A stretch of 64,000 bases of DNA from a bacterium (GTDB lineage: Bacteria > SZUA-79 > Acidulodesulfobacterales > Acidulodesulfobacteraceae): positions 62,001 through 126,000 of the forward strand of contig JAJZVN010000001.1 of NCBI GenBank assembly GCA_021845685.1. Reading direction: 5' to 3'. A program made the position numbers and the translations under genes. This document shows, piece after piece, positions 31,405 to 33,008 of this stretch (position 1 is its first letter; each line of letters starts with the position of its first letter). The notes under the pieces were generated by a model. The model was not told where the DNA came from. It did no database searches and saw nothing but the letters and a program-made list of their open reading frames with translations.

Positions 31405-31920
31405 ATGATTATTGAGAATTATTTAAACAAAATTCCCGACATTCATGATTCGGTTTATCTTTGCGATAACATAACAATCATAGGCGATGTTAAAATAAAA
31501 AAAGATTCAAGCGTATGGTTCGGCACTGTTATCAGAGGAGATGTCAATTATATAAGAATAGGCGAAAGAACAAATATTCAGGATAACAGTGTGCTGCATG
31601 TGCAGCATGATACAGGACCGCTAATCATAGGAAGCAATGTCACGGTCGGTCATAGCGTCAATTTGCATGGATGTTCCATAGGGGATAATTGTTTAATAGG
31701 AATAGGGGCGATAGTTTTGACAGGAGCCGTAATCGGCAGCAATTGCATAATAGCGGCGGGAACTGTTATAAAAGAGGATTTTATTGTTCCCGAAGGCAGT
31801 CTCGTAGCCGGAGTTCCGGGTGTTATAAAAAAAAGCCTTACAAAAGAAGATATAGAGTCTATAAGTTCATCCGCTCAAAATTACATAAATTATGTTAAAA
31901 ATTATAGAAATGTAACATAA
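31405..31920 (+). CDS. Gamma carbonic anhydrase-like hexapeptide-repeat protein
   Basis: A left-handed beta-helix trimer protein of 171 aa. The hexapeptide repeats run from about residue 15 to 130. RGDVNYIRIGERTNIQDNSVLHVQHD and GHSVNLHGCSIGDN contain the His residues of a metal site typical of the YrdA/PaaY/gamma-CA group. It may hydrate CO2, but many members have no shown activity. GGAGGA precedes the ATG. The IS-end-like island at 31952-32047 follows directly. Confidence 0.85.
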   Translation: MIIENYLNKIPDIHDSVYLCDNITIIGDVKIKKDSSVWFGTVIRGDVNYIRIGERTNIQDNSVLHVQHDTGPLIIGSNVTVGHSVNLHGCSIGDNCLIGIGAIVLTGAVIGSNCIIAAGTVIKEDFIVPEGSLVAGVPGVIKKSLTKEDIESISSSAQNYINYVKNYRNVT

Positions 31921-31951
31921 AAATTGATTTAACTAATCATAAAACTGAATT

Positions 31952-32047
31952 CCCGCTTTCGCGGGCCGGCGGGTGCTCGGAATATTGAGCATAGCCGTCA
32001 TACTTTGAAACAGGAAGCTCACGCCTCTTAAGGCGGGAGTAGTTCAC
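31952..32047 (+). mobile_element. IS200/IS605 right-end-like (omegaRNA-like) island
   Basis: This ~100-nt, distinctly GC-richer island is built from three stems: CCCGC/GCGGG (31952-31965), TGCTC/GAGCA (32074-type motif at 31974-31991), and CTCACGCCT-CTTA-AGGCGGGAG (32018-32039, one mismatch). It ends in TAGTTCAC. The layout GGAAGC + hairpin + GAGTAGTTCAC matches the right ends of IS200/IS605 elements, which also form the 3' end of TnpB-associated omegaRNAs. No tnpA or tnpB is adjacent. I read it as a solo end, a MITE-like derivative or an exapted RNA. It ends about 28 nt before the ppx/gppA start. Confidence 0.6.
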
Positions 32048-32075
32048 CCTTTTTTATCATGAGGATGTGTATATA

Positions 32076-33008
32076 ATGTTTGCCGCAATAGACATTGGAA
32101 CCAATACTATAAGATGCATTATTGCAAAATCAAAAAAAGACGTGCTGTCGCCGTTGTTTGTAGATATGAAAATTGTCAGACTCGGGGAAAATTTTAAAAA
32201 AACGGGAATAATTAATAAATCTGCCGTTGATAGAGCAATGAAAGTGCTGGCGTATTACTCGGATATAATCGGACAATACAATATAAATCCGGAAAATGTT
32301 ATTACAACAGGCACAAGCGTTATGAGAGATGCTTTAAACGGAAAAACGGTAGCAGGTAAAATATATGACGAGTTTCATATTAAAGTCAATATAATAGACG
32401 GAGAAAAAGAAGCCGAAATTACACTCTCGGGAATTGAAAATTGTTTTGACGGGTTAAAGAATTTTTATGCTATTGATATAGGAGGGGGCTCTACAGAGTA
32501 TATTTGCTGTAAAAACGGGCTGCCTATATGGAAAAAAAGCATTAACGTCGGAGCTATTCATTTAACCGAAGAATTTCTGAGGTCGGATCCCCCCAAATCA
32601 GATGAAATATTAAACATGGAATCATATATAGATAATAGTATAAATATTTTGAAAAACGGTCTATCAGCTTCAGGATACAATTTTAAAGAACCTTTAAGCC
32701 TTATAGGGACGGCAGGCACTATTACGACTCTTGCTATGGTAGATATGCAAATTAAAGATTATTATAGAGATAAAATTCACGGCTATAAGATAAAAAAAGA
32801 AAATATTGAAAATATATATAAAATTTTTCGCAGCGTTAATAATACCGAAAGATCTAATATAATCGGCATTGAGCATGGAAGAGAAGATTTAGTTATTTCA
32901 GGTACCGCAATTTGTCTTAAAAGTATGGATTTTTTTAACGCATCAAATATAATAGATTCCGAGTGCAGTCTGCTGGAAGGGCTTATAACTTATGAGAAAG
33001 AAATTTAA
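32076..33008 (+). CDS. Ppx/GppA family exopolyphosphatase
   Basis: Hydrolyses polyphosphate and/or pppGpp. It has the ASKHA-fold motifs FAAIDIGTNTIRC, TTGTSVMRDA, the phosphate-2 motif FYAIDIGGGSTEYI and LIGTAGTITTLA. It has 310 aa, the short form without the C-terminal HD domain. I choose ATG 32076, with GAGGA about 10 nt upstream, over an in-frame GTG at 32067. It is followed by guaB-guaA; a link with (p)ppGpp/GTP balance is plausible but inferred. Confidence 0.87.
   Translation: MFAAIDIGTNTIRCIIAKSKKDVLSPLFVDMKIVRLGENFKKTGIINKSAVDRAMKVLAYYSDIIGQYNINPENVITTGTSVMRDALNGKTVAGKIYDEFHIKVNIIDGEKEAEITLSGIENCFDGLKNFYAIDIGGGSTEYICCKNGLPIWKKSINVGAIHLTEEFLRSDPPKSDEILNMESYIDNSINILKNGLSASGYNFKEPLSLIGTAGTITTLAMVDMQIKDYYRDKIHGYKIKKENIENIYKIFRSVNNTERSNIIGIEHGREDLVISGTAICLKSMDFFNASNIIDSECSLLEGLITYEKEI

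Follow-up and report, generated by a model that had tools for sequence, protein, structure and literature searches.

A solo IS200/IS605-type right end in the ppx/gppA leader of a member of the Acidulodesulfobacterales, very probably a dead remnant

The leader of ppx/gppA in the 64,000-nt stretch of DNA analysed here (the window) raises the question of whether a structured segment resembling the end of a mobile element is debris, a unit that still moves, or an RNA put to use by the gene that it precedes. A sequence-only reading of this locus had described a GC-rich island as a solo IS200/IS605-type right end, omegaRNA-like and without an adjacent tnpA or tnpB, and had offered three interpretations: a dead end, a MITE mobilised in trans, or an RNA captured as a leader or guide-type regulator. 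The patch in question (31966-32047) is flanked by a gene for a hexapeptide-repeat protein, which a narrower name would probably call gamma-carbonic-anhydrase-like, and by ppx/gppA, all in one orientation; its G+C content of 54%, against 31% across the window, and its distance of 28 nt from the ppx start codon (ATG) both agree with the earlier description. Coordinates of the features discussed are collected in Table 1.

Table 1. Features of the ppx/gppA leader in the window, and four solo right ends located elsewhere
Feature	Location	Strand	Evidence or remark
Hexapeptide-repeat protein gene, upstream neighbour	31405..31920	+	Pfam PF00132, E=5.9e-18
3'-truncated copy of abundant palindromic repeat, GAATTCCCGCTTTCGCGGG, outside the element	31947..31965	.	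49 genomic matches
IS200/IS605-type right-end remnant (tnpB 3' end and terminal hairpin), ending exactly at TTCAC	31966..32047	+	Homology, covariance model, AP1 edge
Last 21 tnpB codons and stop, in frame, PAGARNIEHSRHTLKQEAHAS	31966..32031	+	Translation; comparison with C107
Stem TGCTC/GAGCA	31974..31991	+	Matches a covarying stem of the family (TATCC/GGATA, ATACC/GGTAT)
Terminal hairpin, CTCACGCC-TCTTAA-GGCGGGAG	32018..32039	+	Helix 8 of family structure
TAGTTCAC, element right terminus, expected TnpA cleavage site	32040..32047	+	Abuts flank common with AP1
Host flank, would-be guide if an omegaRNA is made, CCTTTTTTATCATGAGGATG	32048..32067	+	Follows TTTAT in AP1
ppx/gppA	32076..33008	+	Pfam PF02541, E=3.1e-51
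L097 solo right end	G000 C75:192-328	-	Complete omegaRNA scaffold, no left end, after TTTTAG
L098 solo right end	G000 C66:5265-5399	-	Complete omegaRNA scaffold, no left end, after TTTTAG
L099 solo right end	G000 C191:33034-33172	+	Complete omegaRNA scaffold, no left end, after TTTTAG
L101 solo right end	G006 C201:1437-1571	+	Complete omegaRNA scaffold, no left end, after TTTTAT

By blastn, the 82 nt of the patch are 84% identical to the tnpB 3' ends at C195 and C107 of the same genome (G000), with E-values of 1e-20 and 8.5e-19, and the final 57 nt reach 96% identity to C107; the tnpB 3' ends at C142 and C73 match more weakly (75-77%). Loci with matching ends bear PF07282 and Y1_Tnp genes in Pfam searches, in the arrangement of a Y1 tnpA followed by tnpB at C195 and of tnpB at C107, C142 and C73. 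The segment is more than a non-coding end: its first part is the in-frame 3' end of tnpB, its translation comparing with PAGIQSTGYSRHTMKQEAHAS at the C-terminus of the C107 TnpB. Behind the tnpB stop come the remainder of the terminal hairpin and then TAGTTCAC, which is identical across the aligned tnpB-linked copies and forms an exact junction to the host flank. With this hairpin and terminus, and with the same end found beside tnpA plus tnpB and beside tnpB elsewhere in the genome, comparison of sequences confirms the patch as a solo IS200/IS605 right end with neither tnpA nor tnpB next to it, its similarity to the family lying beyond chance by both blastn and the covariance model described below.

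To describe the family, a covariance model was built from 19 right ends, both tnpB-linked and solo, with the window copy excluded. The resulting consensus comprises 42 pairs, with 97.2% of cells occupied by standard pairs and 18 pairs changing on both sides; when partners were slid by 1-3 columns as a control, 29-45% of cells remained paired, and the covariation score of the alignment was reached by none of 500 shuffles. The terminal hairpin, as helix 8, is 97.4% paired, with 7 of its 10 pairs changed on both sides. The consensus also includes a GAAUU/AGUUC pairing at about -105/-5, a position corresponding to the pseudoknot of the ISDra2 omegaRNA (PMC10097598). In the window the model finds a single match (31928-32047; 67.9 bits, E=1.6e-16), as compared with 125-148 bits for the tnpB-linked copies at C195, C107, C73 and C142. 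The omegaRNA-like character claimed earlier thus stands, in that the patch corresponds to the omegaRNA region of this genome's tnpB genes. That reading was to be given up if nothing similar lay beside any tnpB and no omegaRNA model matched; similar ends do lie there. The Rfam part of the comparison (no match in the window at curated thresholds, and nothing meaningful at gathering thresholds and E<=5) is uninformative, because six tnpB control loci, which returned tRNAs only, gave no omegaRNA match either.

The ppx-leader copy is incomplete. It retains the CGGC/GCCG, TGCTC/GAGCA and terminal stems and, homologous to the family, the 3' scaffold up to the guide junction, and is broken within the scaffold at -82. 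Of the omegaRNA it lacks stem 1, the GAAUU strand native to the element and the central stem's 5' arm, and therefore does not amount to a complete scaffold, which comprises the central stem, stem 1 and a pseudoknot strand near -105; nor does it have the two ends of a PATE or MITE, no left end occurring 5' of 31966. Within the part that remains, reading frame and stems show no decay, which fits a young event as well as it fits selection.

The island as first drawn, with three stems from 31945 onward, joins two unrelated things. The right end is real but begins at 31966; the stem at 31952-31965 belongs to a palindromic repeat similar to GGATTCCCGCTTTCGCGGGAATGAC, which has 49 matches in the genome at <=2 mismatches, including 31947-31965 of the window. 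In 17 of 19 other copies inspected this repeat runs on into AATGA, as it does at the ppx site of AP1 (see below); in the window it halts at CGCGGG, where the tnpB end starts, reading CCGGCGGG. The notion that the repeat forms part of the element was rejected, since the element is missing from most repeat copies elsewhere and from the one in AP1. The genome also encodes a RAYT-like Y1 protein of 213 aa (C75:22490-22819), with no copy of the repeat beside its gene within the 3 kb read. The truncated repeat also supplies a GAATT at -101, by coincidence close to the -104 to -107 at which this motif stands in ten tnpB-linked copies measured, and the covariance model makes use of it. Because the three stems derive from two unrelated elements, a single-sequence fold of the island is not significant (z -1.45).

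The history of the site can be read from the nearest named genome, Ca. Acididesulfobacter diazotrophicus AP1 (G002/G061), whose Ppx is 97% identical. Its ppx leader has the complete repeat and then AATGAACGATAATTTTAAATATTAATATTTTTAT directly followed by CCTTTTTTATCATGAGGATG, where the window has CGCGGG, the 82-nt end and CCTTTTTTATCATGAGGATG; AP1 therefore keeps an empty site, TTTAT followed by CCTTTTTTATCATGAGG, with near-identical flanks on both sides (TTTTTAT, then CCTTTTTTATCATG). Since this empty site ends in TTTAT and abuts CCTTTTTTATCATGAGGATG, the right edge (32047) is, as judged from the alignment, the exact insertion point 3' of the subfamily target TTTAT, a motif that also directly precedes the left ends of the tnpA plus tnpB element at C195 and of a relative in G012 (C8). 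A pattern search found TTTATCCTTTTTTATCATGAGG once in AP1 and once in the own genome, there with TTCAC replacing TTTAT. The left edge is a break: relative to AP1, the single relative from which the deletion is read (more distant ppx leaders being too diverged to align), 34 nt of flank, among them TTTAT, have been lost as far as the foot of the palindrome. Neither the AP1 ppx leader nor the other ppx leaders compared contain a right end. An assembly artefact is unlikely, as both flanks are collinear with AP1 and the locus lies on a 228-kb contig.

A dead IS605 remnant best accounts for what was observed, namely the homology, the in-frame tnpB tail, a right edge that is exact, the empty site in AP1 and the missing parts; we hold this interpretation with high confidence. 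On this account an IS605-type member with tnpA, tnpB and target TTTAT would have entered the ppx leader in plus orientation, 3' of TTTAT, once the host lineage had parted from that of AP1. Either a deletion or an aborted insertion, one-sided and completed only on the right, would then have cost it the left end and the genes, together with the 5' half of its omegaRNA region and 34 bp of flank to the foot of the resident palindrome, and left an 82-nt relic of 21 tnpB codons, right-end hairpin and cleavage site. Among the three interpretations offered earlier the dead end is thus best supported, by the missing left end, stem 1 and central-stem 5' arm and by the lack of a copy in AP1 and in the other ppx leaders compared. 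That the segment is instead a non-autonomous unit (MITE or PATE), moved in trans by TnpA and inserted in its present form, is very improbable for this copy. Miniatures with both ends and left-end-less solos do occur in the genus, some of the latter looking mobile, and C195 encodes an intact-looking TnpA; but the ppx-leader copy has no left end and no TTTAT or TTTAG directly 5' of 31966, simple insertion does not explain the loss of 34 bp of flank with the target, and four target-flanked solos described below, at 125-155 nt, are longer and have a complete scaffold.

The would-be guide behind TTCAC, pointed out by the sequence-only reading, is a perfect match to AP1 behind TTTAT, while the own locus has TTCAC in that place and no second site with guide and target motif occurs in the own genome within 3 mismatches. 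One might accordingly picture an omegaRNA transcribed from the upstream gene that loads TnpB in trans and, in related strains, directs it to cut or block the ppx allele without an insertion, TTTAT-CCTTTTTTATCATGAGG. The genome does encode TnpB proteins with RuvC/TNB domains whose genes have this type of right end, and the GAATT at -101 could replace the pseudoknot strand. This geometry is, however, automatic for any insertion by this family, and poor loading of TnpB is expected for an RNA missing stem 1, its own GAAUU strand and the central stem's 5' arm; we regard such a role as highly improbable, a partly working hybrid RNA using the repeat-derived GAATT being just conceivable.

That the segment was captured to serve ppx as a leader, attenuator or regulator we consider extremely improbable, and no positive evidence for it emerged. 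The orientation and the 28-nt spacing would suit it, but the right end is absent from the ppx leaders compared, the 28 nt next to ppx, with the likely ribosome site, are the same as in AP1, and the structure taken by itself is unexceptional. No convincing terminator or promoter was found on the plus strand of the leader; the one match resembling a terminator lies on the opposite strand and is the palindromic repeat. The remnant is most likely not a regulator of ppx, cannot move in the manner of known IS605 elements because it has no left end, and probably does nothing. The locus is best annotated as a mobile-element relic rather than a ppx riboregulator, and has little further import.

Searching the host genome with the covariance model yielded 15 matches, five beside tnpB (C142, C107, C73, C195 and C139), one at a contig edge (C149) and nine others, none of which has a TNB-domain (PF07282) match beside it; solo right ends hence outnumber tnpB-linked ones. 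Four solos without left ends from the genus (L097, L098 and L099 in the host genome, L101 in G006; Table 1), selected for sharp left edges and so not an unselected survey, measure 125-155 nt each. They start directly after TTTTAT where the hairpin is of the GC type and directly after TTTTAG where it is of the AT type, matching the motifs that precede left ends in the full elements corresponding to them; TTTTA(T/G) occupies 0.47% of window positions. L099 and L101 have a common internal 5' breakpoint despite their different hairpin types. For L098, AP1 provides a near-exact empty site, CAAATTTTAG joined to TAAATAATATAATATT, with one junction base differing and 11 additional bases upstream in G000; for L097 the left flank alone is comparable, AP1 having TTTTAA there, and the flanks of L099 have diverged.

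Such tail-only units may be mobile. We put forward tentatively, as a proposal that is on balance doubtful, that in Acidulodesulfobacterales the omegaRNA/right-end segment is itself mobile as a unit of 125-155 nt that has no left end, inserts 3' of TTTTAT or TTTTAG and spreads guide scaffolds without tnpA or tnpB, the ppx-leader copy being derived by decay from such a unit or from a full element. A limited search of open-licence papers turned up no description of IS605 solo right ends that lack a left end and are flanked by the target. Should complete scaffolds lacking a left end insert at the TnpB target motif, guide RNAs would spread apart from the nuclease, with a bearing on the origin of trans-acting guides and of TnpB-derived regulators.

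Several other loci came to light. Five tnpB-less copies in the host genome, of about 400 nt (L177, C198:22718; L178, C198:82804; L180, C10:14797; L181, C191:158875; L182, C13:4013), share a 5' part that includes a TATAAT-like box (GATATAATAT), and their tnpB tail is diverged. Four of them terminate in GCTTCAC and one, L177, in AGTTCAC; L180 and L181 additionally bear a left-end-like hairpin. All five look like non-autonomous elements that carry a promoter along with an omegaRNA. Fused left and right ends form miniatures of PATE type at L103 (G006 C231:24617-24751) and L110 (G005 C17:24260-24396). A 40-nt near-perfect palindrome, GGTGAACTACTCCCGCCTTAAGAGGCGTGAGTAGTTCACC (L023, G000 C51:114259-114298), consists of the terminal hairpin of IS605 and has TTCAC termini on either strand, and a truncated right end (L022, G000 C23:37879-37939) lies about 25-35 nt downstream of an ORF annotated by eye as PIN-domain-like. 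In another family, a single-contig genome of 1.54 Mb (G039 C1) has 13 matches to the right-end model (e.g. L187-L190), with tnpB motifs at one of the four loci read.

Several known systems bear comparison with the ppx-leader copy. The omegaRNA of ISDra2 overlaps the 3' end of tnpB and has its 3' boundary at the guide junction; its right-end UUC pairs with GAA near -105, the pseudoknot strand lies at -103 to -105, and the scaffold extends back to -116 (PMC10097598), whereas the ppx-leader copy starts at -82, short of the part with stem 1 and the pseudoknot strand. Palindromic repeats of the REP-like kind are represented by its immediate left neighbour, a sequence unrelated to the IS605 end. In Haloquadratum walsbyi, PATEs and terminal-only IS605 sequences lack a transposase, arose by deletion of the core, have palindromes at their ends and cause no target duplication, and some PATEs retain only short C-terminal remnants of transposase genes (PMC3119063); they resemble the ppx-leader copy as IS605-derived, transposase-free remnants, but have both ends, whereas here the right end alone is left and the deletion extends into the left flank. 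An ends-only, PATE-like element of Halanaerobium hydrogeniformans likewise joins the last part of tnpB to a right end without genes, but retains 28 nt of left end with a hairpin (PMC7290912), of which the ppx-leader copy has none. The ppx-leader copy is terminal-only IS605 debris, of a kind already known from Haloquadratum and Halanaerobium.
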